Part shown: positions 43,629 through 64,000 of the stretch, piece by piece
Numbering within the stretch: the stretch's first letter is position 1
How the letters are laid out: the number at the start of each line of letters is the position of its first letter
NCBI GenBank assembly: GCA_026770025.1
Contig: JAMXDE010000004.1
Location: forward strand, 2,480,001 to 2,544,000
Length of the DNA stretch: 64,000 nt
DNA from: Craspedostauros australis
Lineage: Eukaryota; Bacillariophyta; Bacillariophyceae; Mastogloiales; Achnanthaceae
Direction of reading: 5' to 3'
The notes under the pieces: generated by a model
What the model was told of the DNA's origin: nothing
Databases searched by the model: none
What the model saw: only the letters and a program-made list of their open reading frames with translations
Program-made: the position numbers and the translations under genes

Positions 43629-46600
43629 TCACCCGATTCTGTTCCCATCATCCTGGTGAATCGGCGACGCCGTGAAGGTCAATGGTTCACCATTCTCATC
43701 CAATGGCATCTCAAATACCTCCGAATCAACGGAAGACGCCACCTCCGAATCCGAGCTGCCCGTAGCTCGGAGCAAAGATGGATAGAACTGAGGCGCAGTG
43801 CGCGTTTGGTTCTCGCCGTTGGTTGGTCCGTGCTGTTCGGGTTGTGTGCGTTCCATGCCATCTTCCGTGGCGGGTGATTTCGCAGATGTATCCACTAGAA
43901 AGTCGTTGTGTTCATCGATCGGCCCCAGAACTGCCGGCGTCGATCGGCGTTCGAGCTCAGGCTTGGCGAGGCGCTTCAGGTCATCGACTTGGACGACAAC
44001 TTTGCTCGCTGCAGCCTCGTCTTTGTCATCATCATCGCGGGATTCTGTCTGGACGTAGGAAGGAGGAGGCTGATCGCGTTGGACATCTTTCTCACGACTG
44101 TCACCTTCGTCATCGATACGATCAAATGAGAAATTTCCCTCTTCGATATCGAGCGAGGGGCTGCTGAGGCAGTCGTACTCAAATCCATCGTATTGTGATT
44201 CCTTGGACCGTGTGGCATGGATGCCAATGTTTTCGAAGCCTGGCGTGACGTCGCTGATGTCATCGGAATCGTTGTCGAACATGGCTGGGTGGCCCGACAC
44301 AAACCCCTCCGGCAGGTACACATCGGACGAATCAAGCGTAGTTGCGGCTGGGATCTCATCGCGGAACGATTCGGCTCGAAGTGTCAGTGCGATCGATGCG
44401 GGACTTTTGGCACCGGTGTTGGCGACGTCCTCAACATTCCAGTTGTTCTTCAATGTCAGGTGAGCCAATCGACCGGCTGTGGTCCCATTTGGTCTCTCCT
44501 CGATACTGGCGTTGAGAACGTCGTCGTCATCGCTATCGTCGTCCTCGTCACCGTCGCAGTTATCGTGTTCGATTTCGTCACCACTACCATGTACTGGTTT
44601 CGCCTCATCTTGGCCGACCGCCGACCGGAAGGAAGTCACGTTGCGAAAGATATCCTCTCGCGCGGTCGGAAGCCCAGGCGTGTCTTCGCTGGTCATGGAT
44701 GCCACAAAGATGGGATCATCATCCGAATCTGTGTCACTCCCAAGCACCCGCAGATAGGTGGCAGAAAGCATGTTGCTGAGGACGGGCCGGCCTCCCGTTT
44801 CCACATCGGTGAAACTCCCATTGGACGATTCGATGGACGTGTCGTATTCGTTGTCGTCGTCGTCGTCGTCAATCTCGAACTGCCTGGGTGGCATGGAGAG
44901 CTTGCTCATCGGCGATTCCGTGATATCCGACTCCATATCGATCATGGAAAGGAGCTCGTCCGGGATGTCATGCGATGGGACGAGCAGTGCTGTGCGGAAG
45001 ATGTCCATGTCATTGCGTGCGCTCTTTCCAGGGCTGATGTATGGCGAGACTCTTCCGTCTGCTCCAGCGAAATCCATCGTTTGGGAATTTGCCGGTGTGA
45101 CCACGAAACTCATGAACCTCGTTCCGCGGCAATGCGCGCAGTTGGTGGACAGGTACTGCGTCCCAAATTGGTTGTAGTGATAGTCACCATCGTGGCAGCT
45201 GCGGGGGTGATCGCCGGTTCCGACGTGACGATTGGCATCGTGGGAGTTTGCGGCTCCGAGGACCGGCTCGTGGGTTGTTTTCAAGAACAAGAAGCCCAAA
45301 CCAACCATCAAGGATACTGGGATGAAGCTCATGACGAAGATGAGCCCACCACCGAAACGGGTTCCACTTCCCGAATTGGTTTGGCCACCGACGACGTCCG
45401 GGTTTTTGCTATCCTCGCCGAAATCAAACGAATTCTCGCCGACTCCGTTCCCTGGCGTGTCAGAGTTGTCGTCGGCATCGTTGTCACTGTTCGAATCCTT
45501 TTCGTCGTCGATGTCGATGTCGCCGTCGGAGTCTGCGGCTTGATCAGCATCAGCATCTCCGTCCGTATTTTGACCGTCGGCGTCCGCATCAGTACCAGCG
45601 TCGTTGTCGTTGTCTCCATCAGAGTCAGTATCAGATCCGGACCCAGTGCCACCGTCGGTATCTTCATCACCGTCAACATTGGCATCGGTGTCGGTGTCGC
45701 CATCGACGTCGGAATCAAGGTCATTGTCCGCGTCCGCGTCTGCATCGGTGTCTGTGTCGGTGTCGGAATCAAGGTCGCTGTCCACGTCTGTATCGGTATC
45801 GGCATCCGTGTCAGTATCGGTGTCAGTATCGGTGTCAGTATCGTTGTCAGCATCTGTGTCAGCATCTGTGTCAGCATCTGTGTCGGAATCAAGGTCGCTG
45901 TCCACGTCTGTATCGGTGTCGGCATCCGTGTCAGTATCGGTTTGAGCATCTGTGTCAGCATCGGTGTCAGCATCTGTGTCAGCATCCGTATCGTTGTTCG
46001 CGTCAGAGTCGACATCGATATCAGTGTCGGCATCACTGTCGGGATCAATGTCTCCGTCCGCATCGTCGTTGGCGTCGGTATCGGTGCCATCATCGGCATC
46101 CGCATCGTGGTCGTCGGCGTCGGCGTCGGTATCGATGTCTGCGTCCACGTCAGCATCGGTATCTGTATCGACATCTGCATCCGCGTCTGCGCCGCTGTCG
46201 ATGTCTACGTCGTTGTCGGTGTCACCGTCCAAGTCCTTGTCATCGCCAGTATCCGCATCGACATCAGCATCTGTGTCTGCATCAGCGTCCACGTCAGCAT
46301 CCGCTCCCTCGTCACCGTCGTCACCATCTTCTCCTGTCGGTCGGCCATGATGGACATCGAAGAAGGGTGGGATTGGCCACTCCAGGTCAAAACCTGCAAG
46401 GGAGGTGCCCAACCATCGAGTGGTGCTCACGGTTGGAAAGTTCCCAGCAAAGACCAACTCATCCGTTTCAAGCGCACTCTGGATGAGTCGGAGCACCGAT
46501 TCCTCGACGCTCTCGAATTCTATGTTGTCAGAATCTCGCGCCATCAGAGTCATTTGGCCAAAGTACACGGTGCAGTTGTTGTCGTTGTACTCGTATGGGC

Positions 46601-47587
46601 ATTCGTCTTTGTTGCAAGGATGGGCATATGAGTAGAGTGCAGTGGCACGGCAGAAGGAAAGACCGCGCAGCAAACAACAACAAACAAGATAGTGTGAGCG
46701 GGAAGGAGAGAGCGTGATCAGACGATTGATCATGGACAAGTTTTGGAACGAAGAGAAATGGTGCGGAAACTGGGCACGGTATTTCTCATTCAGAGATTCT
46801 CTTTCAGCGATTCTCATTCAGAAGAGCGTTGGCGTATTCATACTTACAATCGACGGCCCTGTACGGACCAGAGCTGATGGCAGCAAATCCCAGGCGTTCG
46901 TCGATTTGATCCAGCTTCCTCTGCTTCCTAGCGAGGGCTGCTGCCGCGACGGCGGAACAATGTTTGGAGCGTGCCGCACGGAGAAACATTGGAAAAGCAA
47001 AGAGTGTGAGATGGGCGGGCTTGGGTCAACGGCAAAGGATCTGCAACAGCGTTTCACTCGATTCTGTTGCGCTTGGACGGGGCACAACCACCCGCCCTCG
47101 ACCTATTAGAGTTGAACTTACCATCGGCCGGCAGTGCGGCGTCACGAGCAAGACCGCGGCGTTGATTCCCCCCGCACAGGATGGTGCTGCGGCGGACGAG
47201 GTCGAAGAGACCTTCCGCAAGGCCATCAACGACATCCTGATCCGGAGGGTCCGATGACTCGATCGAGAAGAAATATTCGATGGCGGATAGATGGGCCGAT
47301 GCGATGTCATCGAGAGTTGTTGCATTCCCATCGACCTCGCCACAGCCGTCGTCGTACTGCACATCGAGACGCTTCCATTCGAAGTCATCCGGTGCAGTTT
47401 GGGATGAGGATTCCAGAATGCGCCCGGTGATTTGCGTTCGATGTGATGCGCCTCTCAGCGATATCGCTGGTCGGGATGGCGCGGCGTTCATCAAAGAACT
47501 CAGCGCATGCTGGGCATGGATGGTGATGACGAAGATGAAGACGACCACCTGAAAGCAGGGGTATTTGGTGGATGGACGCAAACGCAT
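43629..47587 (-). CDS. Large surface membrane protein with Asp-X dipeptide stalk (surface protein A)
   Basis: Proposed exons 47587-47122 and 46606-43629, 1147 aa. Exon 1 has a signal peptide ('[14 protein letters not shown]') and a globular start with '[10 protein letters not shown]' and Cys residues, ending at GTAAGT with one base over. A pyrimidine-rich tract precedes AAAG|AC at 46606, restoring the phase before '[19 protein letters not shown]' and '[20 protein letters not shown]'. Then come about 285 residues in which nearly every second residue is Asp, alternating mainly with Ala, Thr, Ser or Val; one membrane span ('[20 protein letters not shown]'); and a long acidic cytoplasmic tail with a Cys/His juxtamembrane block, an LDSSDVYLP motif and SKESQYD. 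The span and tail motifs recur in the protein at 58358. If the intron is wrong, the single frame could start at ATG 46733. The function is unknown; the design suggests a stalked adhesin or receptor. Confidence 0.65.
45480..46320 (-). repeat. Asp-X dipeptide repeat region
   Basis: A hexanucleotide-like degenerate repeat (GA[CT] plus a variable codon) encodes about 280 residues with Asp at almost every second position. The plus strand is open as well (reading Ser/Val or Ile/Val repeats), a mechanical effect of the repeat and not a gene. The pattern resembles the Ser-Asp stalks of staphylococcal surface adhesins in design only. Confidence 0.85.
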
Positions 47588-48462
47588 GATGTTTGGTTTG
47601 GTTGTGCCCGAAGGAGATCACGGATGGGATGAAATGTCGTTTGCGTTGAAGCAATTTTGTGATGCGGAAGGGTTGCTCATCAACCATGCACATGATGCGG
47701 TCTCTTGTACCCAGCATTCTATTGTGTGAGGGCACTCTCGCGGTACCCCACCACGCCGCCCTCCATCCGTATCCGCTTTCGTGGGGATGTGAGTAGGTAC
47801 AAGTCCATCAACTCATCATGATGATGATCATCAACTGCCGTTCAGAGTGTTGGCGCGTCCGCAAAAGCAAAACAACGTTGTCGGTGATCCGTCTTGCCTC
47901 GCTATCTCCCTGTGTTTGCCGCAACAGGTGCCATACCCATGCACATTCTGTCTTCGCCATACTGGTGGCGGGTATGGTTCCCACTGAAGCGGTCCTGTAA
48001 CGGTATGATCAGTGTGGGGAGAAATCTCGGCACGCGCGGAGGATCACTTCGCATTTGAAAATGATCGTTGTAACCGAAATATAACGTTCCAGACACATGA
48101 AACGCCGTTCAACTGAAACGTGGCAGAGTTGACATTCATCGAGTGACGTCGTGGTGGGGTGTCAACGCACGACTCGAGTTGATTTCTTCCACGAGACAAA
48201 TGTGGTGACTCGCGCTAATCGAAGTGTTTTTGGCGTCAAGACCGATTTTGGCGCCGAAATTGACACGAAAGGAACGGTTTGGGCAAGCAAAAATGCAGTG
48301 GCGTTGGGTGGAGAGACATCAACGTCTCTCTTTGCGAATGCTCTCACAAAAATTGGATGCTCCCTCGTTCGGATGGAACCATCGAAAGGGCAGATAGCAA
48401 CACTGTGATCCACAACATTGTTGGCGGGAACGGTGACACCAAAGTGAGCAACATTGGAACGG
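47588..48462. other. Divergent intergenic region
   Basis: About 875 bases between the minus-strand start at 47587 and the plus-strand DUF1517 start at 48463. It should hold both promoters. Short frames on either strand are not convincing. Confidence 0.45.
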
Positions 48463-49312
48463 ATGATGGCGAGGCGAGTTCCCTGGATCACGATCGCGTG
48501 CATCGTTGCGTGGGCCAATCCTTCGGCAGGCTTCGCTCCGCATCAGTCGCTGTTGGCATCGCCTCTGCGTCCGACCACCCACGATGCTGTGCATCTCGTG
48601 GTGCCGCTGCGAACGCCACGCAGTCTCCACCAGGCACAGCACCTCCCACCAAAGAATTCGACCCCAAGATACGCAGTGACTGTGGACGATGCCGACTCCA
48701 ACCAAGACGATTCTCCGAACGAGACGGCGAAGGGCATCTTCCCATTCTCATTTAAGTCCTTTCGCAAGCTGTGGAAGTCCACAAGATCCACAAGGGCGGT
48801 CATGGCAACGTTCTTCATGGTCTTTGCCCTCTTTTTCACACCGTTGCCAAGCGAGGCTCGCTCCGGAGGCAGAGTGGGCGGATCGTCGCGATCCAGCATC
48901 AATCGCAGCAGCGGCAGTCGCAGCAGCAGTCGCAGCAGTTCCAGTCGAAGTAGCAGCAGCAGAAGCTCAAGCCGAAGTGCCCCAAGCAGAAGCACACCAA
49001 GCCGAAGTGCCCCAAGTCGTCCCAGCAGCAGCAACAGCGGAAGCTCGAATAGAAGTCGCAGCAATAGTGCTGGTGGCAGAAGCGCCCCCAGTCGTAGCAG
49101 CGGAAGTGGTGGCAGCTCCGGAAGTGCACCCAGTCAATCCAGCAGCGGTGGCAGTAGCAGCAGCAGCTCATCCAGCCACCAGCCTTCAAGCTCAGCGACG
49201 GCGGTCAAGGAAGCGAGACCAGCCAGCAGAAATGATGCGGGCCCGACAATCATCATTCGACCACAACGCCTATTCTCACCATTCGGAGGCTACGACCGAG
49301 GTCCGACAATCC
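48463..49312 (+). pseudogene. 5' half of plastid DUF1517 gene, cut by element 2
   Basis: The ATG at 48463 (a second ATG follows at once) starts a hydrophobic signal peptide ending 'NPSAG|FAP', the diatom plastid-import signature with Phe at +1, then a transit-like region. A second hydrophobic segment ('VMATFFMVFALFFTPLPSEA') resembles a thylakoid-type signal or membrane anchor. EARSGGRVGGSS begins the DUF1517 region, followed by a long Ser/Arg-rich stretch and 'RPQRLFSPFGGYDRGPTI'. At 49313 the LTR of element 2 interrupts a codon. The rest continues at 56599. The joined gene would encode 576 aa. As it stands, the protein would read into LTR sequence and stop at 49570-49572. Confidence 0.88.
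49308..49312. repeat. Target site duplication of element 2 (left)
   Basis: AATCC abuts the left LTR and recurs at 56594-56598. Confidence 0.92.
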
Positions 49313-49848
49313 TGTCGGAATCGGTTTTGTGTCGACCATCAATCCATTTTGTGAGCGCACGAAACCACGACTGGCGACTCGTGACTCGAATCCGAACATC
49401 AGATCCGAACCACGAACCCGAACATCGATTGAGCAAACACAAAACAACAAAAACAACAATCGGCCAATTCGCGCCAAAACGCACTCAACCAAGACCTTCC
49501 ATCAGCAACCTGTGCGCTGAGAAGGTGCCTTGCACATCCAACGCATGGTCCGCTCGTGGGACCATGCCCTAAGTGCTAAGCTTCGTACGGATGGCAACGC
49601 AACAAAGAAGTCGTTCGTCTATCTAAGTTCGTTCATGGAGCGTTATCCTGTCAAGGTCATCTTGCTGAGCTCAACAAACTTCGGCCAGCGAAATTTTCCC
49701 AATCTCGCTCCATCTCGATCAACAGCTTCCTCTCTCTCTGTTTGCCCGCAATCACTCGCACAGCACCGCGATACACCGCACTGAACCTCGCCATGCATCC
49801 TGCACCTCAAGCAACTAATCATAAATCACTCGTTATCAGTTTACAAGA
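49313..49848 (+). repeat. 5' LTR of element 2
   Basis: 536 bp, starting TGTCGGAATC and ending TTTACAAGA. The 3' end is GA instead of the usual CA; the target duplication leaves no other choice. Should contain the promoter. Confidence 0.92.
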
Positions 49849-49862
49849 GGTTATGAGCCTGG
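49849..49862 (+). other. Primer binding site of element 2 (Met tRNA anticodon arm)
   Basis: GGTTATGAGCCTGG begins directly after the LTR. Its complement CCAGGCTCATAACC is the 5' stem and loop of an anticodon arm with CAT anticodon (stem CCAGG, loop CTCATAA). Drosophila copia and yeast Ty5 prime from the same internal region of initiator Met tRNA, using a cleaved half-tRNA. The match to a tRNA of this genome is inferred. Confidence 0.75.
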
Positions 49863-50162
49863 ATTCACATCCCTGCTAATCGCATCTTCCGTTCATCGTC
49901 TTCCGTCAGTTCCATCAGCTCTCAGCCGTCGCTCGTGCTTCACAGCCCCGACCGCTCATCTGATCTCCCCTCGCAGTCAGCTCTCAACCGTCGCTCGTGC
50001 TCACCAAGCCCCGACCGTTCAACCTGGCTCCACCAGCCCGACATCGCTCTCAGATCTCTTTCTCAGCGATCCTCCGCTCCCCGTCTCCCATCAGCCATCA
50101 GCAGACTGCCACCCATCCGCGTGCCAGCCTCCCATCTACCGACCCTCAACTCAGCCATCTGA
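49863..50162 (+). other. Untranslated leader of element 2
   Basis: C/T-rich leader between primer site and gag. It contains a near-duplicate of about 38 bases (CAGCTCTCA-CCGTCGCTCGTGCT type) near 49917 and 49980. No frame. Confidence 0.6.
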
Positions 50163-51554
50163 ATGTCCGCCAGCGTCTCCGGTGATATCAGCTCCACTCC
50201 GTCAGACGAGACTACCCCACGCTTGCCATCAGACTCAGCTTCCACTCCGGACCCTCCTTCGCTTCTCACGCCGCCGGTCCCCGCCATGTTTCAAGCCACC
50301 CGTCGCGCCTCCGTCGCATCCAAGAAGTGCCATGTGTTCTTAACCAAGGCACAGCGCGCCGCCCTCAGCGACAAGGATCGCATCCCTGTGCTTGAAAAGG
50401 CATCGAAGTCCATCGACGATGTCCAATTCATGGTGCAGGACCTCTCCTCCGACATCAAGTCGAACGACTTCTTGGAGAAGAACCATGACCTCAACGCCAT
50501 CCTCAGTCGCGTTGAAGAACACCTCGCGGCGTACGACATGACCGATGTCTTCGACATTGTCACACGCCCAGTCCTTTCCTCTGAGGGTACCCCGTCCTTC
50601 TCTTCCGACACCCCACGGAAGCTGTTCTCGGAGTACCTGAAGTGTACCGAAGCCGACGTCCGTGGATCCAATTGGACGTACCACAACTTCGCAAGCAGCG
50701 ATGAGATCGCGACCGACCTCGAGGTCTCTCAGCGTTTCATCCTGAACTCCTGCACTGAGGAGCTCCGCGCGATCGTCGCCAACCGCCTCCGCCTTGTGCC
50801 CTATGACGAAAAGGGTGGACCGCTCGCGCTCTTCTACATCGTCGAGTTGGTGGCCCGCACCAACTCCGATACGGCCCGCGAGATCCTCAACCGGATCCAG
50901 CATTTCAAGGTCAGCCAGATTGAGGGCGAGAACATCGAAGTGGCGTGTGCCTACCTCCGCTCGGCCATCTCCCGCATTGCGGCCTCCACCATCGACGTCC
51001 CCACCGACATGCCGCAGATCCTCATTCGGGTCTTCCACACATGCACCTGCCAGGCCTTCAAAACCCACCTGGGTTTCATGGAGATGTCCATGGAGATTGG
51101 AACGTCGTCCACCTTGGACACCTGGGAGGGCGTCCTTGACGTCTCCCTCGGCAAGTACCGCAAGCTCGTTGCCACGGACTCTTGGCACATCCGCCGTCGC
51201 CACCCCGCTGCTGCCAACAACACCACCGGGTCTGGGTCGGGCACCAAGCCCTCCGTCGACCGTCGGGGCAACCCCATCGACCGCACTCCTCCTCAGGAGG
51301 GCGAGAGCCACACCCGGGACCGCGCAAATGGCTCCGGTACGGAGCACTGGTGCGGCAACCCCCGCTGCCAGCGCTGGGGCAACCACGAGACCGACGGCCA
51401 CGACGCCTGGTTCCAGGAGTTCAAGCGCAAGCGCGGCGAGCGCCAGGCCTCCGCTGAGGCCAAAGCCACCGCCGTCGACGACTCCGCTTCCGTGGCCGCG
51501 CCTCCCCCGACCACCCTTCGCGTCCGCATGGCCGATGATGCATCGGGTTTTTAA
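50163..51554 (+). CDS. gag: Gag protein of element 2
   Basis: A 463-aa protein from the ATG at 50163. A Ser/Thr/Pro-rich start is followed by a helical capsid-like body (about residues 45-350) and an Arg/Gly-rich, presumably RNA-binding, segment. Instead of a CCHC knuckle there is an HWC finger of form C-x4-C-x5-H-x4-H (HWCGNPRCQRWGNH, about residues 393-406, plus the last His). A related finger occurs in element 1 after its true zinc knuckle. The frame ends ...GGT TTT TAA, where the slippery site allows entry into pol. Confidence 0.85.
   Translation: MSASVSGDISSTPSDETTPRLPSDSASTPDPPSLLTPPVPAMFQATRRASVASKKCHVFLTKAQRAALSDKDRIPVLEKASKSIDDVQFMVQDLSSDIKSNDFLEKNHDLNAILSRVEEHLAAYDMTDVFDIVTRPVLSSEGTPSFSSDTPRKLFSEYLKCTEADVRGSNWTYHNFASSDEIATDLEVSQRFILNSCTEELRAIVANRLRLVPYDEKGGPLALFYIVELVARTNSDTAREILNRIQHFKVSQIEGENIEVACAYLRSAISRIAASTIDVPTDMPQILIRVFHTCTCQAFKTHLGFMEMSMEIGTSSTLDTWEGVLDVSLGKYRKLVATDSWHIRRRHPAAANNTTGSGSGTKPSVDRRGNPIDRTPPQEGESHTRDRANGSGTEHWCGNPRCQRWGNHETDGHDAWFQEFKRKRGERQASAEAKATAVDDSASVAAPPPTTLRVRMADDASGF
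51545..51551 (+). promoter_or_regulatory. -1 ribosomal frameshift heptamer GGGTTTT
   Basis: In the gag frame the bases read G GGT TTT, matching the X XXY YYZ rule, with the TAA stop immediately after. Slipping back one base gives TTA as the next codon, which is precisely the frame that stays open to the pol stop at 56029. The pol frame is closed just upstream (TGA at 51536), so fusion must happen in this short overlap. No strong downstream stem-loop was obvious by eye. Confidence 0.8.
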
Positions 51555-54500
51555 AGGCGGCCCTTCTTCGCGTAAGCCCTCTCCTCTGCCTGCCAGTCAT
51601 CCTGCTCTTCCTCATTGAGGGGGTGGTAGGGTGCCTGGGGCTCTTCATTGAGCAACTCGCAGTCTCGACTACTTGGGTCCTTCAGTGGGTGCTCCCCGCC
51701 GATGCTTGGGTCGTCACCACCCTCCGGCACCTCCTCCGTCGTCCAGGCGGATCCAGCCTTCCCTCCGTCCCTCGCCATGTCGTCCGGCACTCCAGCCGCC
51801 TCGGCCTTGGCCTCCCCGCCCGCCTGATGGTCCTATCCTACCTGACCATCCCGGCGTCTACTCTCCGATACTTCGAGTACGCGCAAGTCCGGTCCAGCCG
51901 CCTTGTACATGCTCGGGGTTCCCCTCTCCCAGTCCTCGCTCCCTGCCGCATCCTGCAGGAAGTCGAGGCCGGCTCCTCCTCTCTTGGTGCCGCTCCTCCC
52001 TCTCCGTCCTCTACTCTCCACCTATCCGGTTTCGGGCACCAGTTCGACGATCTCATGGCCCATCGCCATGCCTCCGCCGCCGTCCAGGCATCCCGCCTGC
52101 CTGCTCCGGAGTCCGTTGCCGCCACTGACGACGCCATCCCACCGGATCTCTTCCGCCTCATCAGTCGGGCCTCAGACCCTTTTCGACCTGTCTCCAAGGG
52201 CCCCCTCACCATCTCTGCTCCGCTGGATATTCACCCACTTGCTTTCCAAGCTTCATCTTTCAACGTCGACCACCAGTTCATGTCGCAGCTCATCCACAAC
52301 GCCTACCACTCGCCGAAGGGCACTCACAAGAATCTCGTTCCCATCATCATGGACACTGGCTGTTCCTTCGCCATGACCTATGACGTTGACGACTTCCTGG
52401 ACGAGCCCATCTTCGGATCCTACGGCAAAGTGCACACCGCCAGCGGGTCAATGAACATCACCGCCATCGGCACCGTGTCGTACGACATCATGTCGATCGA
52501 CGGTACCTTCGATACAGTGGTCATGCCCGGCCATCTCATCCCCGGCAGCAACGTTCGCCTCGTTTCCCCCCAGGACTACGCCAAGACCGCGCGTCTCTAC
52601 GATGCAGAAACGTTCGGTGGGAACAGCCGGCAGTTCTGGATGAAGACTGCCGACAAGGGCACCATCACCGTCCCGGTCCACCCGCACTCCAACATCCCGA
52701 CTGCGCTTGGCCGCCCATCTGCTAAGCCGTCTCGCGGCTCCGCCCATCGCTCTGCCGCCCATCTCACCGAGTCCACCGCTCTGGCCGGCGTCGAAGCCCT
52801 CGAGCCAGCCAACGCCAACCTTTCCACCGCGCAGAAGGCTCTCCTGCATGCCCATCTCAAGCTTGGCCATCTCGGCATGGCTCATGTGCAGCAGCTGTTC
52901 CGCGCCCATGAGGTCCTGGACCCGGAGGACGAGGTGCCCCAGTCCCATCTCATTCCCTCTGTCTCCGGCATGAAGCGGTGCCCCCTGCCGAAGTGCGCCT
53001 CCTGCGTCCTTGCGAAGTCCCGCAAGCAACGCCTCCCCAACCGTCGCTCCGCTCCCGCCGGCGATATCCGTCCCATCGCTCCCGGAACTGCGCTTCCGGG
53101 CGAGCACGTGTCTGTCGATCAGTTCGAGAGCAGTGTTCGTGGCCGGCGTCTCAACACCTTCGGCCTGGAGCCCCAGACCCAGCGCTACGTCGGTGGGACC
53201 ATCTTCGTTGACTCACACACTGGTTTCATCTCCATCCACCACCAGGTCTCCTTCGGTGCCTCCGACACCATTGCGTCCAAGCGTGTCTTCGAGCAGTCCG
53301 CCCGCGCCCACGGGGTTCAAGTCCAGCACTACCACACCGACCGTGGGGTCTTCACCTCTGCTGCCTGGCGTGACAGCCTCGATGCCGACCAACGCCTCAC
53401 TTTCGGTGCTGTCGGTGCCCATCACCAGAATGGAGCGGCCGAGCGCGCCATCCTCACCTGTACCCTTCGCGCCCGGGCCATGATGGTTCACGCCCAGCTT
53501 CACTGGCCTAAGGAGTTCGCCACCGACTTGTGGCCGACCGCCATGTCGCATGCCGCGTGGTTGTACAATCACACGCCGCGCCGCACCTCCCGCACCACTC
53601 CGCATGACGCTTTCACTGGTTCCTCCGTCGGGTCCCAGTACCTCCCTCGCTCTCGCGTCTGGGGGTGCCCCGCCTACGTCCTCGACCCTCGGCTGCAGGC
53701 CGACAAGTCCATCCCTCGCTGGGAGCCACGGGCCCGGCTCGGCCAGTACCTTGGCTTCGATCCCGAGCACTCGTCCTCGGTTGGCCTCATCCGCAGCATC
53801 CAGACCGGATGGGTCTCCCGGCAATATCATGTGGTGTACGATGAGACGTTCTCCACTGTCTCCAATGCCTCCTCCGGTGACCTGGACCCGCTCTGGCACG
53901 ATCTCTTCCGCACCTCTCGCGAGCACGTGCTGGAGTTCCATGACGCTGCCATTGATGGCCCGCTTCCGCCGCCCGACCCGCATTTCTTTCCCACCGACCC
54001 GCCCGCTCTTCCTTTCTCTGGCCCCCCTCCTGGTGTCGGCGTTGAGGGCGAGGTGGTGGTACCTGCGGTAGAGAACAACGCCGATCCCCAGGACGTCGGA
54101 CCCCAGGACGCCGCCCCAGCTGAGGCACCAGCCCGTGCCGACCCTCCCCTGGGACGCGGTCATCGCATCCGCAGGCCCGCTCTCAAGTACGGCGACGACA
54201 CCGTCCACGTCGACACCGTGGCTTTCCACACGTCCTCGGTCCTCTCGACTGGCCGGCCCTCACGCCTGCATGCTCCCGTATCCATCCTCGACCGCCTGGA
54301 TTGGGACAACCCCGCGGCCATCGACCCTCGGTTCCATGCCCTTATGGAAGCCTCCACTCATCCGATCACCCAGGAGGTCCATCAGCTTGACCCTCGCCTC
54401 CTTGGCGTGCGGGTCCATGACGCAGATAACCCCACCCTTCGTGATGTCCTCCGGTGCGACGACCCCGAGGAGCGCTCCAAGTGGATCGCTGCCATCTACA

Positions 54501-56029
54501 CCGAGCTCGACCAACTTCAAGATAAGGGCACGTTCGACATCGTTCCCCGCTCCTCGGCAGGCTCCCACGAAATCATCCCCTCTACGTGGGTCTTCAAACG
54601 CAAGCGGTATCCGGACGGGTCGATCATGAAGCTGAAGGCACGCTTGTGCGTTCGTGGTGACCGACAGTTCGAAACAGGGCGAGACAAGAACCAAACGTTC
54701 TCCCCTGTTGTCGAATGGAGCACCATCCGGCTCCTTTTTGCTCTCACCGTCGAATTCAACCTGCACACCCAGTCAATCGACTTCAAGAATGCATTTGTCC
54801 AATCCTCTCTCCCTGAGCCAATCTACATGGAGCTTCCACCCGGGCCTTTCAGCGCCAACAAGGACCTCCGCGGTCGCATCTTCCAAATCAACAAGAGCCT
54901 CTATGGAGACCGACGTGCGCCTCGGCTGTGGTATGACCATCTGCGTGCGGCACTCCTTTCACCCACCTTCGGTTTCACTGTCTCCGTGAAGGACCCGTGC
55001 CTGTTCCTCAAGCCCGGACTGGTCCTCGTCCTCTACGTCGACGATGCCATCATCTGCGGCACCTCACCAGAGCAGGTGACGGCCCTCATCAACACCCTGG
55101 AGTCTGAAGGATTCGACCTCACCAGAGAAGGCGACCTCTCCGCCTACCTCGGGATCCAAATCGAGCGCAACTCCGAAGGCACGTTGAAGCTGTCGCAACC
55201 TGGTCTCACTCAGCGTGTGATCGAAGCCCTTGGCTTGGAGAATGCCACTTCCCGTCCTACTCCAGCGGACAAGGCCCTGGGCAAGGAGCCAGATGCACCG
55301 CCATGCTCAGGGCAGTTCAACTACCGCTCAGTCCTCGGCATGATGATGTATCTGGGAACCAACACACGTCCTGAATGTGCCTTCGCCATCAACCAATGCG
55401 CTCGCTTTTGCAATGACCCAAAGCTACCACACGAGCAAGCTCTCAAACGCATCGGCCGCTATCTGCTCGGCACGCTCCAAGAAGGCATCCTCGTCCAGCC
55501 ATCCACCAAGCGAGCACTCGACTGCTACGTCGACGCTGACTTCGCCGGCCTCTGGAATGCCGAGTCCGATCAGGACCCTACATGCGTCAAGTCGCGCACA
55601 GGATTCGTGGTCATGTTGGGGAATATGCCCATCATCTGGAAATCCAAGCTCCAGACGGAAATTGCAGTGTGCACTCAGGAATCAGAGTACATTGCGATGT
55701 CCACTGCCATGAGAGTCCTGGTTCCGCTCCGAGAGACCCTCCGCGAGATCACGCAGTGCTTCACCATCAGCTCGGACGGTTTGGACACACTCACTACCGT
55801 CCACGAAGACAACCAAGCTGCTATCACCCTCGCCACCACCGAACCAGCTCGAATGACTCCCCGCTCCAAACACATCGCGGTCAAATATCACTGGTTTCGC
55901 TCGCACCTCAAACAGGGCGAGATCCAGGTGAAACACATCGCCACAGACCTCCAGCTTGCGGACATCCTCACCAAGGCACTCTGCAAAATCAAATTTGCAT
56001 CTGCCCGGAAGAGTCTCATGGGCTGGTAA
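51551..56029 (+). CDS. pol: Pol polyprotein of element 2 (made as Gag-Pol by -1 frameshift)
   Basis: About 1492 codons from the shift to the stop. First comes a strongly hydrophobic stretch ('LLCLPVILLFLIEG', then 'VVGCLGLFIEQL', about 51580-51700), then an unstructured linker; protease with IIMDTGCSFAM; a GAG-pre-integrase domain with HLKLGHLG and CASCVLAK; an integrase core with D in SVDQF, D in YHTDRGVF and E in HHQNGAAERA; reverse transcriptase with WVFKRKRYPDG, SIDFKNAFVQ, SLYGDRRAPRLWY and LYVDDAII; and RNase H with ESEYIAM, HEDNQAA and 'LADILTKAL'. There is no in-frame stop or visible damage. No ATG lies at the head, consistent with frameshift expression. Confidence 0.93.
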   Translation, partial: LKAALLRVSPLLCLPVILLFLIEGVVGCLGLFIEQLAVSTTWVLQWVLPADAWVVTTLRHLLRRPGGSSLPSVPRHVVRHSSRLGLGLPARLMVLSYLTIPASTLRYFEYAQVRSSRLVHARGSPLPVLAPCRILQEVEAGSSSLGAAPPSPSSTLHLSGFGHQFDDLMAHRHASAAVQASRLPAPESVAATDDAIPPDLFRLISRASDPFRPVSKGPLTISAPLDIHPLAFQASSFNVDHQFMSQLIHNAYHSPKGTHKNLVPIIMDTGCSFAMTYDVDDFLDEPIFGSYGKVHTASGSMNITAIGTVSYDIMSIDGTFDTVVMPGHLIPGSNVRLVSPQDYAKTARLYDAETFGGNSRQFWMKTADKGTITVPVHPHSNIPTALGRPSAKPSRGSAHRSAAHLTESTALAGVEALEPANANLSTAQKALLHAHLKLGHLGMAHVQQLFRAHEVLDPEDEVPQSHLIPSVSGMKRCPLPKCASCVLAKSRKQRLPNRRSAPAGDIRPIAPGTALPGEHVSVDQFESSVRGRRLNTFGLEPQTQRYVGGTIFVDSHTGFISIHHQVSFGASDTIASKRVFEQSARAHGVQVQHYHTDRGVFTSAAWRDSLDADQRLTFGAVGAHHQNGAAERAILTCTLRARAMMVHAQLHWPKEFATDLWPTAMSHAAWLYNHTPRRTSRTTPHDAFTGSSVGSQYLPRSRVWGCPAYVLDPRLQADKSIPRWEPRARLGQYLGFDPEHSSSVGLIRSIQTGWVSRQYHVVYDETFSTVSNASSGDLDPLWHDLFRTSREHVLEFHDAAIDGPLPPPDPHFFPTDPPALPFSGPPPGVGVEGEVVVPAVENNADPQDVGPQDAAPAEAPARADPPLGRGHRIRRPALKYGDDTVHVDTVAFHTSSVLSTGRPSRLHAPVSILDRLDWDNPAAIDPRFHALMEASTHPITQEVHQLDPRLLGVRVHDADNPTLRDVLRCDDPEERSKWIAAIYTELDQLQDKGTFDIVPRSSAGSHEIIPSTWVFKRKRYPDGSIMKLKARLCVRGDRQFETGRDKNQTFSPVVEWSTIRLLFALTVEFNLHTQSIDFKNAFVQSSLPEPIYMELPPGPFSANKDLRGRIFQINKSLYGDRRAPRLWYDHLRAALLSPTFGFTVSVKDPCLFLKPGLVLVLYVDDAIICGTSPEQVTALINTLESEGFDLTREGDLSAYLGIQIERNSEGTLKLSQPGLTQRVIEALGLENATSRPTPADKALGKEPDAPPCSGQFNYRSVLGMMMYLGTNTRPECAFAINQCARFCNDPKLPHEQALKRIGRYLLGTLQEGILVQPSTKRALDCYVDADFAGLWNAESDQDPTCVKSRTGFVVMLGNMPIIWKSKLQTEIAVCTQESEYIAMSTAMRVLVPLRETLREITQCFTISSDGLDTLTTVHEDNQAAITLATTEPARMTPRSKHIAVKYHWFRSHLKQGEIQVKHIATDLQLADILTKALCKIKFASARKSLMGW

Positions 56030-56048
56030 GGCTCCTACTTGTCCAATT

Positions 56049-56057
56049 GAGGGCGAG
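56049..56057 (+). other. Polypurine-like tract of element 2
   Basis: GAGGGCGAG lies directly before the 3' LTR, with one pyrimidine inside. The position fits plus-strand priming. Confidence 0.6.
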
Positions 56058-56593
56058 TGTCGGAATCGGTTTTGTGTCGACCATCAATCCATTTTGTGAG
56101 CGCACGAAACCACGACTGGCGACTCGTGACTCGAATCCGAACATCAGATCCGAACCACGAACCCGAACATCGATTGAGCAAACACAAAACAACAAAAACA
56201 ACAATCGGCCAATTCGCGCCAAAACGCACTCAACCAAGACCTTCCATCAGCAACCTGTGCGCTGAGAAGGTGCCTTGCACATCCAACGCATGGTCCGCTC
56301 GTGGGACCATGCCCTAAGTGCTAAGCTTCGTACGGATGGCAACGCAACAAAGAAGTCGTTCGTCTATCTAAGTTCGTTCATGGAGCGTTATCCTGTCAAG
56401 GTCATCTTGCTGAGCTCAACAAACTTCGGCCAGCGAAATTTTCCCAATCTCGCTCCATCTCGATCAACAGCTTCCTCTCTCTCTGTTTGCCCGCAATCAC
56501 TCGCACAGCACCGCGATACACCGCACTGAACCTCGCCATGCATCCTGCACCTCAAGCAACTAATCATAAATCACTCGTTATCAGTTTACAAGA
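56058..56593 (+). repeat. 3' LTR of element 2
   Basis: 536 bp, apparently identical to 49313-49848. Confidence 0.92.
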
Positions 56594-56598
56594 AATCC
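56594..56598. repeat. Target site duplication of element 2 (right)
   Basis: The second AATCC, after which the DUF1517 reading frame resumes. Confidence 0.92.
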
Positions 56599-57479
56599 AT
56601 CACCACAATACTTACGTGAATCCGCAACAACCAATACAACCAAGAACTGGAGTCGTTGGCTCTGAGGCGGCCGTGGATGGCACGGTTCCAACACAGTTCC
56701 CCACGAGGATCGTTCCAACGAAGCACTCGAAGGCTTCGAAACGAGCCAAAGTACTTGTCGGTATTGCCGTGTTCGCCGCGATCGCCGCGAAGGTGACATC
56801 GGCGTACAACCCACAGTCACCATCGCAATCTGCGTTCGATGCACCTGCGAGGCCATTGCAGAACCAGGAGCCCGTCGCGTCAGTCGTGTTGCTACGCGTG
56901 GCCCTCAACGTTGCGAACCGAAAATCCAAACGCTCCATCCTGTCCGTGCTGGATCAACTGGTCGATGCCGCCGACGTCGACAGCACCATGGGATTGCAGC
57001 AGCTCACTGCCGACATTGCGCTGGCAATCTCACGCAACAAATCGTCTATCGCCTCGGCCTACGCACAGACGGACGAATATGTCGACATGGAGGATGCCTA
57101 CCGATCGTACGACAAGCTCTCCGTGGTGGAACGCAGCAAGTTCGATTCCGAATCACGCACCAAGTACACCAGCGAAGGTTACGCGCTCGATGCCGACACC
57201 AGATCCAAGTCGGAACCTGATCCGAATGCACCCAACGCAACCATGGCGGTGGTCACATTGATTCTTACCATCACGGGAGATCATTCCATCAAGGTCCCCA
57301 AAGACGAGATGCTCTCCACCGCGGACCTCGACAACCTCCTGGCCAAGATAGCATCAGAAGTGCGAGCTCCTGGTTGTTTGGAGGATGTGGAGATTCTTTG
57401 GACTCCAACAGAACCTGACGAAACAATCACGAAGGATGAGGTGACAGCTGATTATCCCGACCTGAACATGTTGCTGTAG
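56599..57479 (+). pseudogene. 3' half of plastid DUF1517 gene
   Basis: It continues the frame of 48463-49312: the C at 49312 plus AT at 56599 complete a His codon. It contains a hydrophobic segment ('AKVLVGIAVFAAIAAKVTSA') and the family's C-terminal core: 'VASVVLLRVALNVANRKSKR', 'STMGLQQLTADIALAISRNK', 'NATMAVVTLILTITGD', 'LEDVEILWTPTEPDETIT' and DYPDL close to the end. Plant and cyanobacterial DUF1517 proteins are plastid/thylakoid membrane proteins of unknown activity. On its own this half lacks a targeting sequence. Confidence 0.88.
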
Positions 57480-58357
57480 AGTAGAGGATTCCAAGCTTTC
57501 CCTGACCGTCGAGGTGGACTACCATACATACCACTCGTAGTATACGTATGGTACATGAGCAGAACTCAAACTCTGTGTTGGTGGGGCATCGATCACGTGC
57601 GTATACACGGACATACGCACTTTGGGAGAGAATACCGCCAGTTGCCTTCATTCCAGAGGCCGTGTGCACTACCTCTGTCTTTGCCACTACGATCAGAAAA
57701 CATCGGGACGAAGCCGAGAAGAGACCGTCTCTCCTCTCGCCGCAGCACAAGGTCTCGCGTCGTACCTGGGCACGATGCTTTGGGATGGTTGCGGCAGGAT
57801 GCGAGCACACAGACGCACACCTTTAGCCGACGTTCGGCAGAAGCAATTGACTTGTAAAAGGACAAGACCAACCACATCGTGCTCTTCCACAGTCTTGGTT
57901 CCACCGAGCGTGCGAAGAATCTCATTGCTGAATCATGGGATGTGATCCCAGTGACAACACTCTTCATCGTCACCCGAAGCAGTTTCAACAGAGCGGAACG
58001 ACAGATCAGTAGATCCAGAAGGATAAGTCTCACAAGTAGACAACGCAAACACCTTGACTCAAGAGTTTGATTTGTGGCGTGTGCTCGTATAATGTGAATA
58101 CAAGTGTTACAATTTATTATATATTGCTGGTAAAATACATTACACAAGTATTTAGTATACATATTTACATATCACACTATTAATATATGGCGTTGCTTTA
58201 TAAATCATGAATGCGGTCGTTCGCTGGGGTGCGCTCAAGTCGGCTGCTGCGCTGCGCTGCACTGTAACTGTTGCTTGCGCATTTGGTTGCCGACGAGCTG
58301 GATGTGGATTGCATGTGGCGCGGCAATGGCGCCATCAACCTTCTCCGCAGGACAGGT
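57480..58357. other. Convergent 3' regions, no gene
   Basis: About 880 bases between the DUF1517 stop and the stop of the minus-strand gene at 58358. An AT-rich tract at 58100-58200 contains TATTATATATT-type sequence. No frame is convincing. Confidence 0.5.
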
Positions 58358-61300
58358 TTAGATGCCTTGCTCGAGATCGATATCCTGCAACTCCAAGAAA
58401 GCTCCGTCCTTCGGAGATTCAAGGTCTTCCTCCTCCTCCGCTGTCAGGACGGCAGCAGGTGGGCTGGAGAAAGGACCGATGTTTTCGTACGTTGTGACAT
58501 TCGGACTCCTTGGTCTCGCGATGTACACGGCGCCTTGCTTTGCTGCAGGCGGTTTCATTTCGGTCTCATCTGCTTCTCCGCCTGCCCCCGCCACGATGCC
58601 GCCTCTCTTCTGCTTCATGCGAGCCGGTGGGAATTCGAAAATGCTGGTGAGGCTGGTGTCTTCTTCAGACGATTTGTCGCCTTCGAAGGATCCCAGCAAG
58701 GACGCGGTGATGGCAGCGTCATGCTTTGGCTCCACCATGAAGAATCCATTCTGTTTCGTCAGGTGCTGCAGTAGCGATCCGACGGATGCTGTGAGGCTCC
58801 CGTCTGTCGACTTCGGTGAACCCAGACCATACTCGATGCTGTCGTAGTTGGATTCCTTGCTCTGCGTCGGATAGATGTTGAGCTGTTCGATTCTGGGCGA
58901 CACAGTCGGTGTGATTACCTCATCGAATGGGAACATCTTCTCCGAGGTGTCGAGTGGTGACACGACCTCGAAACCCTTGGACGTTCTGCGGCTCCTTGAT
59001 TCTTTCGATCCATCCGAAAGCAGGTTGGCAGGGAGGTAGACCTCGTCGGAATCCATCGTCGATGACCCCTCCACCTTCAGCAGCATAGTGTCGATGTCAG
59101 ACAAGGGTTGTTCTTGTTGTTGTTGTTCTTGTTCTTGTTGTTGCTGCTGCTGTTCTTGTTGGTTTGGCGGGAGGGGAAGTGGAACCGGGAGTGGAAGTGG
59201 TGGCGACGGCGGCAGTGACAATGATGGTGGCTGCTCGATGTCAGGGCTGGGAAGTGCTGCTTCCACAGTGGTTCGCGGATCTCTCGTGGTGCTGGCATTG
59301 TTTGGTGTACTAGTGCCACCAAAGTCGAGTTGACTCATGGAGTCCTCGCTTGGCGTTCGCGTCTCCACGAAGATGTGAGGCTGTTCGATGTCTGCGTTGT
59401 AAGACGGGTTCGACAATGAGCTTGGTGTCAACATGGGCATCATTTGTGTCGTTGAGAAGCCACCTGGTCCATGCATGGGGCTCGGAATCGGGCTGACTGG
59501 GCGGTTTGCTGGATTCCGGAAAACAGTGATCAGGTTGAATGCTCGATCCGCTATGGATGACATCGTGGAGTCGTCGTTCGCTGGGCTGCTTGGCAGGGTG
59601 CCGAGCTGGCTTGTGGGAGTTGCGGCGCGTGGGGTGTGCAGATCGACGGTCGAGACGGAGTCTTCACTGCTGCTGACCGAGTATGGCTGCATCGTGAGCA
59701 TCGGTGGCAATGCGCCAGCATCGATGAATCCGGAGAATTTCGTGAAGTGCGTGTCTTCGCTGCTGGCTTCTGAGATGGTGGAAAGCGCAGGTGCCGTGAA
59801 GAAGCCGTGGACTCTGGTCTCGCGGCACTGCGGACAGTTCGTCGAGAGGTATCGTGCTCCTTCACGCGTGAAATGGTAGTTGCCGTCGTGGTAGCTGTTC
59901 GGTGGATCGCCGGTGCCAACGGCGTAGACGAGACTGGTGTCCACAAAGTCAAACACTGACGGTTCTTGGTATGCCTCATTGTGCCTCTTGATGAGGAACA
60001 GGCCGATGCCTGTCAAGAAGGCGATTGGGAGGAAGCTGATCACGAAGATCAAACCGCCGCTGAAGCGGTTCTTGTCGCCCGTCCCACGTCGGTTGGATGA
60101 GTCGGGGTCATCCTGTTGGATGGAAGTATTTCAGTATTTCAGGTGAGCACAAGTGGTTGCGGTGGTGGTGGCGTTGGCGGCAGAAATAGAGCCGAAGAGG
60201 AGCACAAAAGAAAAAAACAATATTGTGGCGCGTGTGAGATGAGATGCACTGGGTGTTCATGGTGGTAGAAGGCAGCGCATCGAGGTGGCAGGCAAATCGA
60301 TTCGTGGGCACTTACACCATTTCTGTTGACGTTGTCGGGATCAATTCCTCCTCTTGTTGTGTTTCCGATTTCGGTGGGTTGGGAAGAGACCGTTGGGGTT
60401 GCTGTGGGTGCTTGCGTGTCATCCGCAGTCATTGTGGGAGACATGGTTGCACTTGTCGGAGCGGATGTTGATGGGGAACTGGCGGGAGATGCCGATGATG
60501 TTGGTCCAACAACAGAAACAGACGGTGTCGATGTTGGTGGTGCTGTTGGCGACTCCGCGGGGCTCCCAGTGAAATCCGTGGGGTTGTTTGGTGCATTAAC
60601 TGTCGTTGGTGCGCTTGTTGGTGCACTCGTTGGTGTCTGATTTCCGGATCCATTTCCTCCCGTTGTTGATGGCGATGCTGTTGGAGACGATGTTGTTGCG
60701 GGTGATGGTTGGTTTGGTTCATCCATTGCGGTTGGATTTTGGGTTGGAATGGCATCGTTCGGCATCTCCGAGCTGGTTGGAGAAGCCGTTGGCTGGTTTC
60801 CTGCAGACGACGATGTTGGTTCTGAAGTTGCATCAGGAGATGCCGTGCCCACAGGAGTGGACGGAACCTCTGTTGGTGTGCCGGTGATGGTAACGGTGGT
60901 CATAGTTGGTGGCATTGTTTGAGTTGGCACGCTAGTCGTGTCTGTTGCCATGGTGGGCGATTGGGGCACGGGTGTTGAAGTTGGCGGATTGGTGTCACCC
61001 AGCTGTGTTGGAATAGGTGTGATCACAGATTGAGGTTCACCCGACGTCGTCGGCTCATTTTGAGATGGTGATGGAGCGACTCCATCAGTTGGCGCCGAGG
61101 TTCCAGATGGTGTATTTGGGTTACCGTGTGCTGGAGGCGTCTGCAGAGCCGTCGGGGAAAGAGTTGGCGACACGGGGGCATCGCCAACTTGATCAGATGA
61201 GGATGGAGCAGGAGTGATTGATGTCGCTGTCGGTGCTGTTGTCGATACATTCGTATATCCAACGATCGTTGGTTCGCTTGTTGCTGGGGTACCTGGTTGA

Positions 61301-63984
61301 TTTGTCTCCGTTGGCGTTGTTGGCACTGCAGGAGCTGGCGACAAGGTTGGAATAGCAGTTGGCGCGAATTGATCGGGTTGATCCGTCTGTGCCGAAACAA
61401 CCGGGCTTGGTGACAAAGTCGCAGAATCGGGCGACGGCGCATTTGGAGAACCGTCGGTTGTTGGTTGGTTGGTTCCTGTGCTCGCCCCCGCCGTTGGCGT
61501 TGGTTCCATGGTCGGGATGTTGGTTAGCGACGATGGTTGATCAGGAGTTGTTCCTGTTGTTTCGCTTGGCGATGGTGTCGGTGATTGCGCGATGTCACCT
61601 TCACTGGTCGGGAGGCCTGTGATAGTTGGTTCACCTGTTCCAGATGCTGATGATGGAGCCTTTGTTGGAGCACTTGTTGTCACCGTTAGTTCAGTTGGTT
61701 CAGTCTCTTCGCTTGGCGATGACGTTGGCGACTGCGCGATGTCACCTTCGCTGGTTGGAAGACCTGTGATAGTTGGCTCACCTGTTCCAGATGCTGATGA
61801 TGGAGCCTTTGTTGGAGCACTTGTTGTCACCGTTAGTTCAGTTGGTTCAGTCTCTTCGCTTGGCGATGACGTCGGCGACTGCGCGATGTCACCTTCACTG
61901 GTTGGAAGACCTGTGATAGTTGGCTCGTCTGTTCCTGATGCTGATGATGGAGCCTTTGTTGGTGCACTTGTTGACACGGTGGGTTCAGTCGCTTCGCTTA
62001 GCGATGATGTCGGTGATTGCGTCATGTCACCTTCACTGGTTGGAAGACCTGTGATAGTTGGCTCGTCTGTTCCTGATGCTGATGATGGAGCCTTTGTTGG
62101 TGCACTTGTTGACACGGTGGGTTCAGTCGCTTCGCTTAGCGATGATGTCGGTGATTGCGTGATGTCACCTTCACTGGTTGGAAGACCTGTGATAGTTGGC
62201 TCGTCTGTTCCTGATGCTGATGATGGAGCCTTTGTTGGTGCACTTGTTGACACGGTGGGTTCAGTCGCTTCGCTTAGCGATGATGTCGGTGATTGCGTCA
62301 TGTCACCTTCACTGGTTGGAAGACCTGTGATAGTTGGCTCGTCTGTTCCTGATGCTGATGATGGAGCCTTCGTTGGTGCATTGGTTGTCACGGTTGGTCC
62401 AGTCGCTTCGCTTGGTGATGATGTCGGCGATTGCGCGATGTCACCTTCGCTGGTCGGGAGGCCTGTGATAGTTGGCTCGTCTGTTCCTGATGCTGATGAT
62501 GGAGCCTTCGTTGGTGCATTGGTTGTCGCAGTTGGTTCAGTGGGTTCAGTTGGCGATGGCGTCGGCGACTGCGCGATGTCACCTTCACTGGTTGGAAGAC
62601 CTGTGATAGTTGGCTCGTCTGTTCCTGATGCTGATGATGGAGCCTTCGTTGGTGCATTGGTTGTCGCAGTTGGTTCAGTAGGCCCAGTTGTTTCGGTTGG
62701 CAATGACGTCGGCGATTGTGCGATATCACCTTCGCTGGTTGGAAGAGCTGTGACAGTTGGTTCACCTGTTCCAGATGCTGATGATGGTGCCTTCGTTGGA
62801 GCACGCGTTGTCACAGTTGGTTCAGTTGGTTCAGTTGTTTCGGTTGGTGATGGCGTCGGCGATTGTGCGATGTCACCTTCGCTGGTCGGGAGGCCTGTGG
62901 TAGTTGGTTTGTCTGTTCCAGATGCTGATGATGGAGCCTTTGTTGGTGCATTGGTTGTCACGGTTGGTCCAGTCGCTTCGCTTGGTGATGACGTCGGCGA
63001 CTGCGCGATGTCACCTTCGCTGGTCGGGAGGCCTGTGGTAGTTGGTTCACCTGTTCCAGATGCTGATGATGGAGCCTTTGTTGGTGCATTGGTTGTCAGG
63101 GTTGGTTCAGTGGGTTCAGTTGGCGATGGCGTCGGCGACTGCGCGATGTCACCTTTACTGGTTGGAAGACCTGTGACAGTTGGTTCGTCTGTTCCAGATG
63201 CTGATGATGGAGCCTTTGTTGGTGCACTTGTTGTCACAGTTGGTTCAGCGGGTTCAGTTGGTGCCGCTGTGACGGTTGGTGCGGCTGTGCCGGTTGGTGA
63301 AGTTGGAGCCACAGGAGCCAAGGTTGGCATATTTGGCTGATTGGAGGTAGTTGGAGCTGCATTGTTCGGAGACGACGTGGGTGCGTTCGGTGCGACACTG
63401 AATCCAGCTGGCTGGGTAGTCGCGGTTGGTTGTTCGGTTCCAGCCTCCGACTCTGCCGTTGGAACATCAGTCGTTGCTGGAGATCCTGCTGGCGATTCTG
63501 CTGGAGATCCTGTTGATGAGTTTGGCTTCGTTGGAGCAGCTGGCTCCGCAGGAGACCCAGTGACGGTGGGCTCAGCCGTGACAGAGTCATCAGTTGGTTG
63601 GCTGATTGCTGTTGGTTCGCCTGTTCCTCCACCAATCCCAGTTTTAGGCCCTGCGTCCACGGATGGTGTTGGCGCGGTTGTGGATGTGGGGGCATCTACT
63701 GGCGCAGCAGGTTGGTCTGACGTCGTAGGCGCTGCTTTGGATGGAGCGGATGTTGGTGAAGTCCCCGTCGCATCATCACTTGTCGTTGGCTGACTGGTTC
63801 CAGCAGCCGGACCAGCTGTTGTTGTCACTGCTGTGGGCGATGCAGTCGTAGTAGGCGTTGCCGTAGGTGCGTCTTGATCATCAGTCAATTCAACTGGCTG
63901 AGAGGACGGTGTGGGGACACCTGTGTGTCCATCTGCCATGGTTGGCCGTCCTGTCGCTGTTGGTTCGCTTGTCCCCGCTGTCAC
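58358..63984 (-). CDS. Large mucin-like surface membrane protein with PT-repeat stalk (surface protein B), 5' end outside window
   Basis: Exons from beyond 63984 down to 60316 and 60112-58358, at least 1807 aa. The intron 60113-60315 has GGT|GTAAGT and AACAG|GAT in phase 0. The visible ectodomain is almost wholly Pro, Thr and Ser: irregular PT-type units at both ends and twelve copies of a unit of about 46 residues in the middle. Next come the membrane span ('LIFVISFLPIAFLTGIGLFLI'), then a cytoplasmic tail beginning GTGDPPNSYHDGNYH and YLSTNCPQCRETR, a Gln-rich stretch and, further on, MDSDEVYLP and SKESNYDSIEY. The span and these blocks match surface protein A. Heavy O-glycosylation is likely. 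The signal peptide and N-terminal domain must lie to the right of the window. Confidence 0.75.
61560..63230 (-). repeat. Twelve tandem Pro/Thr-rich repeats of about 46 residues
   Basis: Each unit begins APTKAPSSASGT, followed by (D/G)(E/K)PT and LPTSEGD, then a variable QSPT...TEPT segment of differing length (41-48 residues). Three neighbouring units, starting near 62021, 62159 and 62297, are spaced exactly 138 bases and nearly identical in DNA, showing recent homogenisation. The opposite strand is open through the array as a by-product. Confidence 0.9.
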
Positions 63985-64000
63985 GGTTGGTTCCGTGATC

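Follow-up and report, generated by a model that had tools for sequence, protein, structure and literature searches.

The 64,000-nucleotide stretch of Craspedostauros australis DNA analyzed here (contig JAMXDE010000004.1, positions 2,480,001 to 2,544,000; hereafter the window) carries two genes, A and B, both on its minus strand. On sequence comparison, their products and that of a third locus, C, are members of a real, unnamed family of diatom membrane proteins with many members in the databases. From the N- to the C-terminus, A and B consist of a head, a low-complexity stalk, one membrane span, a short cytoplasmic block and a distal tail. This plan suggests a type I linker at a wall-forming membrane or at the plasma membrane, working in the manner of the silicalemma-associated proteins (SAPs), a tentative reading to which we assign a probability of about 0.45. 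A preliminary description of the same DNA had proposed surface receptors or adhesins; the membrane of the silica deposition vesicle is no less plausible as their site.

Gene models and relationship of A, B and C

The genome searched comprised 74.8 Mb in 90 contigs, and the splice sites of A, B and C were predicted from GT/AG and the reading frame. The model of A has three predicted exons (47587-47122, 46940-46848 and 46606-43629; 1,178 amino acids) and that of B has four (69583-69088, 68909-68817, 68603-60316 and 60112-58358, in coordinates extended past 64000; 3,543 amino acids). Gene B had previously been delimited, truncated and unspliced, at 58358-63984. It is cut off by the window and reaches 5.6 kb past its end, to extended coordinate 69583, when the adjoining DNA is used; exons 1 and 2 and more than half of the stalk exon lie outside the window. 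Exon 2 measures 93 bp in both genes, with identical phases. An intron separates the stalk from the span in predicted B, and there is none at this place in A. The features are as follows.

47122..47587, minus strand: A exon 1, with a hydrophobic signal peptide, an RXL motif (RIL, residue 56) and the first head half; donor GTAAGTTC (gene model; predicted splice sites; hidden Markov model (HMM) of the head, run on the A head alone, 9.7e-15)
46848..46940, minus strand: A exon 2 (93 bp), linker joining the two head halves (gene model; B exon 2 equal in length and phase)
46341..46606, minus strand: start of A exon 3, second head half (C.VYFGQM...RWLG), connected to the stalk by a short stretch (gene model, Smith-Waterman, head HMM)
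45372..46340, minus strand: A stalk, 323 residues, 42% Asp, Asp-X repeat (composition)
45279..45350, minus strand: A membrane span of the type GGLIFV.SF.P (translation, hydropathy)
45117..45224, minus strand: A cytoplasmic block with H-x-G-x2-H-x12-C-x2-C (motif, alignment)
43629..45116, minus strand: A distal tail, 495 residues, with DSSDVYLP at 44333-44310 and the SKES.YD..EY motif at 44207-44175 (translation)
68909-68817 and 69583-69088 (extended), minus strand: B exons 2 and 1, outside the window (gene model)
60316..64000, minus strand: B exon 3, part in the window, Pro/Thr-rich stalk, continuing to extended coordinate 68603 (gene model, composition)
61561-63258: 138-bp tandem repeat in the B stalk exon
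60113..60315, minus strand: predicted 203-bp intron of B, separating the stalk from the span (gene model)
59987..60058, minus strand: B membrane span GGLIFVISFLPIAFLTGIGLFLIK (translation, hydropathy)
59813..59920, minus strand: B cytoplasmic block with H-x-G-x2-H-x12-C-x2-C (motif, alignment)
58358..59812, minus strand: B distal tail, 484 residues, with DSDEVYLP at 59053-59030 and SKESNYDSIEY at 58861-58829 (translation)

All motifs named in the preliminary description are present in A and B at the re-read coordinates, and the likeness of the two proteins exceeded chance in Smith-Waterman alignments judged against 1000 shuffles. Span and block together scored 200 (shuffles 25.8 ± 4.8), the head 253 (33.8 ± 4.7) and the distal tail 95 (50.3 ± 7.7), with none of the 1000 shuffles as high in any of the three comparisons. 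The stalks, which had been called unrelated, are indeed very different, but the ectodomains share the N-terminal head, which had been overlooked.

A genome search with the span and block of A, in which the best candidates only were scored, returned A, B and one further locus, C, on contig C21 (E-value 1.2e-12; predicted 1,930 amino acids). Two outside relatives used as queries recovered the same three loci; one weak extra row from these queries was rejected. For span and block, each of the six pairs formed by A, B, C and the outside relative P0006 greatly exceeded its shuffles, with scores of 150 for A-C and 186 for B-C (0 of 1000 shuffles as high in each). The head gave 73 for B-C (0 of 1000) and a weak 54 for A-C (4 of 1000). 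The distal tails scored no better than shuffles for A-C (72; 427 of 1000 as high) or B-C (44; 435 of 1000), and those of A and B showed no alignment to the tail of P0006 (919 and 611 of 1000 shuffles as high).

Several distances, computed over 92 sequences, speak against a simple A-B sister pair. The second head half nearest to A is that of P0118 (39%), and the one nearest to B is that of P0056 (39%), followed by A (36%). At 76%, C and P0033 have the blocks nearest to that of B, which is itself absent from the five blocks nearest to A. The putative pairing of A with B thus rests on the distal motifs, the span residues, the whole-head score and exon 2.

Conserved ends and changing stalks

A protein database search over a limited length range listed the best 120 of 130 matches, which together with A, B and C make up a set of 123 sequences; alignments were built from 92 sequences, from 73 sequences and from 21 pieces. 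A taxon was given for six of the 120 listed rows (P0001, P0016, P0057, P0067, P0085 and P0105), the other 114 being without one. These are Nitzschia inconspicua (P0001), a Bacillariaceae bin, Cylindrotheca fusiformis, Cylindrotheca closterium (by name and by taxid 2856) and Seminavis robusta (P0067). All six rows belong to the Bacillariaceae or Naviculaceae, and the four species looked up all belong to the Bacillariophycidae, groups of raphid type. No Pfam profile matched the head or the block (E ≤ 1 in eight relatives; E ≤ 0.01 in 92), in agreement with the earlier failure to recognize a named family.

The block comprises 36 residues, with a consensus of about VGTGDPP[RG]SFHEG[LM]YHY.R.G.RYLST[NR]C..C.ETR, and reads GTGD.P.S.HDG.YH...YLSTNC..CR.TR in A and B. 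Its pattern could not be located in three of the 120 listed relatives; in all 117 others a hydrophobic span lies upstream of it, 19-57 residues apart. No second hydrophobic segment was found in any of the 120 sequences tested (of 123), the first 60 residues being set aside. The arrangement H-x-G-x2-H-x12-C-x2-C is present in 122 of the 123 sequences, and the median identity over 92 sequences is 71% in the block versus 31% in the second head half. Since words from the block served to pick the relatives, part of the conservation seen in the block reflects this selection. A second module, HxCx4CxxC, occurs in 116 of the 123 (115 of the 120 listed relatives, and C) and is absent from A and B; this module and the head lie outside the scored part of the query and are therefore independent of the selection. 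The block is carried twice by P0003, where the second copy comes after HxCx4CxxC, and by P0005, which suggests modular behavior. For the second P0005 copy, a hairpin and a helix are predicted at a predicted local distance difference test (pLDDT) score of 91-95, and the block is probably a small zinc-binding fold.

The preliminary description had asked whether its motifs might be confined to the two genes or occur in soluble proteins. For span and block this is not borne out, given the relatives listed and their spans, whereas the distal motifs DS.(D/E)VYLP and SKES.YD..EY, although present in A and B, were seen only there among the sequences compared (C and P0006). The same results bear on the possibility that the likeness is a chance product of low complexity. 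Acidic repetitive stalks and tails do inflate naive scores, and the A-C and B-C tails equal shuffles. However, the A-B head, span and block beat all 1000 shuffles, and the 120 relatives share HxCx4CxxC in all but five cases outside the query region. The shuffle tests and the relatives refute chance likeness as far as the head, span and block are concerned, and its overall probability is next to nil.

The head, common to A, B and C, is predicted as two beta-alpha-beta halves. The head HMM, built from seven seeds, matched 99 of the 123 sequences, seeds included; A was matched (9.7e-15) once its head was scanned alone, and in 13 of the 24 sequences missed, the span is preceded by fewer than 90 residues. 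Among 18 sequences with a head near the start, 14, including A, B and C, have a hydrophobic N-terminus as judged by hydropathy only, and the other four begin at most 23 residues from the head. Of these 14 N-termini, 11, again including A, B and C, have an RXL motif no more than 60 residues from the hydrophobic core, as compared to 3.1 expected on shuffling. In many members, although not in A or C, the head halves are linked by a stretch of the type AR-x-L-[SG]-[IL]-[VI]-S (e.g. residues ~163-178 of P0006). This linker includes an RXL and may serve for internal processing.

A surface sensor, in which the head binds a ligand or a bacterium and the tail relays a signal, possibly after cleavage of the ectodomain or tail, would suit the modular receptor-like plan and the AR-x-L-type linker kept in many members. 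The predicted fold of the head is of a common alpha/beta kind, and the SEA domains of MUC16 and TMPRSS6 are among its tied structure matches; like SEA-domain proteins, the family would have an outer alpha/beta sandwich. Mucins likewise combine a glycosylated Pro/Thr/Ser stalk with one span. Unlike in SEA-domain proteins, however, the head is membrane-distal, the SEA family (PF01390) gave no match at E ≤ 1 in eight relatives or at E ≤ 0.01 in 92, and no GSVVV-like cleavage motif was found in the aligned head linker. We regard a sensor as unlikely.

The stalks differ in both length and composition. That of A is 323 residues long with 42% Asp and 5.6% Ser, and that of B is 2,698 residues long with 21% Thr, 18% Pro and 14% Ser. 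The C stalk, of 1,134 residues, contains 43% Gly and Asn-Ser-Thr-Asp-Gly repeats, with 81 NSTDG units and 122 N-glycosylation sequons. The stalks of A and B are thus neither Ser-rich nor Ser/Gly-rich, and C alone is Gly/Ser-rich. Among the relatives, P0001 has almost no stalk, and P0002, P0011 and P0013 carry thrombospondin-3-like DSDGDGV repeats (P0013 with a Pfam TSP_3 match at E 0.002, below the cut-off of that family). Further stalks consist of acidic Asp/Gly, Pro/Ser/Thr or beta-flower-like repeats. Opposite the Asp-X repeat of A, an open frame of 804 amino acids (44217-46631) most likely just reflects the repeat.

The distances of the second head half and of the block co-vary (Mantel r 0.58, 0 of 2000 permutations; 92 of the 123 sequences), indicating that both ends have been inherited together. 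The earlier interpretation holds as regards a single-span family whose cytoplasmic block is strongly conserved and whose stalks vary greatly, but the notion that the stalks are freely swapped is unsupported. Turnover in place, by growth and loss of repeats, would be a simpler explanation than free exchange of ectodomains.

At 0.35 nm per residue, the fully extended stalks would measure ~113 nm in A, ~944 nm in B and ~397 nm in C. These lengths are relevant to a somewhat unlikely alternative, in which the family would provide the raphe adhesion-motility complex with its link at the plasma membrane: the block would bind raphe actomyosin, directly or through an adaptor, and a long glycosylated stalk would cross the slit to the adhesive strands. 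All six of the 120 listed rows with a taxon are of raphid type. The extended B stalk could span the raphe slit, which is 300-500 nm thick in Craspedostauros according to the passages cited from PMC11420354, and the N-glycosylation sequons of the C stalk also count in favor. The gliding model, as set out in the relevant passages of PMC11420354 and PMC13056149, requires membrane-crossing molecules to connect the raphe actin with the adhesive strands through the plasma membrane, and a figure legend in PMC13056149 has the transmembrane part of the complex drawn and unnamed. However, the RXL motif indicates a silica route, the A stalk is too short for such a slit, P0001 is nearly stalkless, and the raphid restriction is seen only in six taxon-bearing rows of a length-limited search. 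More narrowly, the family could supply the transmembrane part that has long been sought in the raphid gliding machine, with a raphid-specific zinc-module tail on the raphe actomyosin and with stalks that reach through the slit to the adhesive strands and are variously absent, Asp-rich, Pro/Thr mucin-like, N-glycosylated Gly/Asn or calcium-binding thrombospondin-like. Being narrower, this proposal has lower odds, and we consider it decidedly unlikely.

Surroundings in the window and the genome

Between A and B lies a Copia-type long terminal repeat (LTR) element (49313-56593). Its LTRs (49313-49848 and 56058-56593) are identical at 536 of 536 positions and it is flanked by a 5-bp repeat, AATCC, which together suggest that the element is probably very young. 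To its left is a Ser/Arg-rich frame (48454-49312) with no Pfam match and to its right a DUF1517 frame (56594-57476); the element may split one gene made up of these two frames. A second Copia-type element (3875-11188) has a single open frame of 2,437 amino acids (RVT_2, GAG pre-integrase, zinc knuckle).

In the genome at large, 28 of the 88 rows matching Silic_transp, spread over many contigs, are nearly full-profile and without a stop, and several others have in-frame stops. The silicon transporter family is very large, in a figure that includes any haplotype or assembly duplicates. Diatoms are usually reported to have a handful of silicon transporters, far fewer than here.

Proposed working of the linker and comparison with known systems

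As a SAP-like linker, the protein would enter the secretory pathway and be trimmed at the RXL site. The head and the stalk, acidic or O-/N-glycosylated, would be placed in the wall space, at silica or an organic coat, and the block, with its probable zinc-binding fold, would dock an unvarying partner in the cytosol, either an adaptor or a protein of the cytoskeleton. A change of stalk would alter reach and surface chemistry and leave the docking end untouched. The site would most likely be the silicalemma, followed by the plasma membrane after exocytosis. We rank this reading first because of the RXL motif and the plan matching that of SAPs. According to the passages cited from Tesson and colleagues (PMC5647440), biosilica-associated proteins were, as of 2017, the only ones in which RXL cleavage sites had yet been found. 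Two of three SAPs of Thalassiosira pseudonana were located at forming silica as C-terminal fusions and the third was cytosolic, and knock-down of the same two resulted in deformed valves.

Several observations weigh against the linker. RXL is a short motif; it is absent from P0034, P0098 and P0119, and three of the 11 sequences that carry it (P0084, P0085 and P0105) are close relatives. One relative, P0114, combines a signal-like start with an RXL and a Pro/Ser/Thr stalk and gives no match to the head HMM, indicating that the head is not universal and can be lost or replaced. A silica role in all diatoms predicts centric members, and none of the six listed rows with a taxon is centric (114 are without one). 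Zinc binding is deduced from the kept His and Cys residues and a predicted fold; the first block copy of P0005 is modelled poorly (pLDDT <61), and Foldseek and VIA-align found no relative of the block. As far as the descriptions cited go, the lumenal part of SAPs is Ser/Gly-rich and no head is described, in contrast to the 5.6% Ser of the A stalk, and SAP tails measure 58-68 residues in Cyclotella cryptica as compared to 495 in A and 484 in B. In the passages cited from PMC10503012, BLASTp with SAP parts (E 1e-5) gave no SAP in either N. inconspicua or S. robusta, both of which hold the present family (P0001, P0067). This negative is weak, since the conserved SAP segment of 23-28 residues is, according to the same passages, kept within species only. 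In view of the low Ser content of the lumenal part of A, the long distal tails of A and B and the negative BLASTp search, we do not class the family as SAPs.

Both the patterning of the diatom wall and gliding depend on proteins able to transmit information or force through a membrane, of which only a few are known. In the present family, the docking end is conserved to single residues beneath an outer head, and evolution has made the stalk short, long, acidic or glycosylated. The family thus offers a natural series of spacers that share one anchor, and it is directly amenable to tagging, knock-out and pull-down.

Among known systems, the proteins CaTrailin4, Ca5609 and CaFAP1 of a raphid diatom are similarly very long or mucin-like and extracellular, but they are described as trail or mucin-like components in the passages cited from PMC11420354. 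Silicanin-1, as described in the passages cited from PMC5525289, is unlike A and B in its NQ-rich lumenal domain with 18 Cys and in its 20-residue cytosolic end without known motifs. However, it resembles them in being a type I diatom membrane protein with an RXL after the signal peptide, and its lumenal part is incorporated in silica. With SAP1-3 of T. pseudonana and C. cryptica, as far as these are described in the sources cited, the family shares a predicted signal peptide followed by an RXL, a variable low-complexity lumenal part, one span and the presence of a short conserved cytoplasmic segment after the span.

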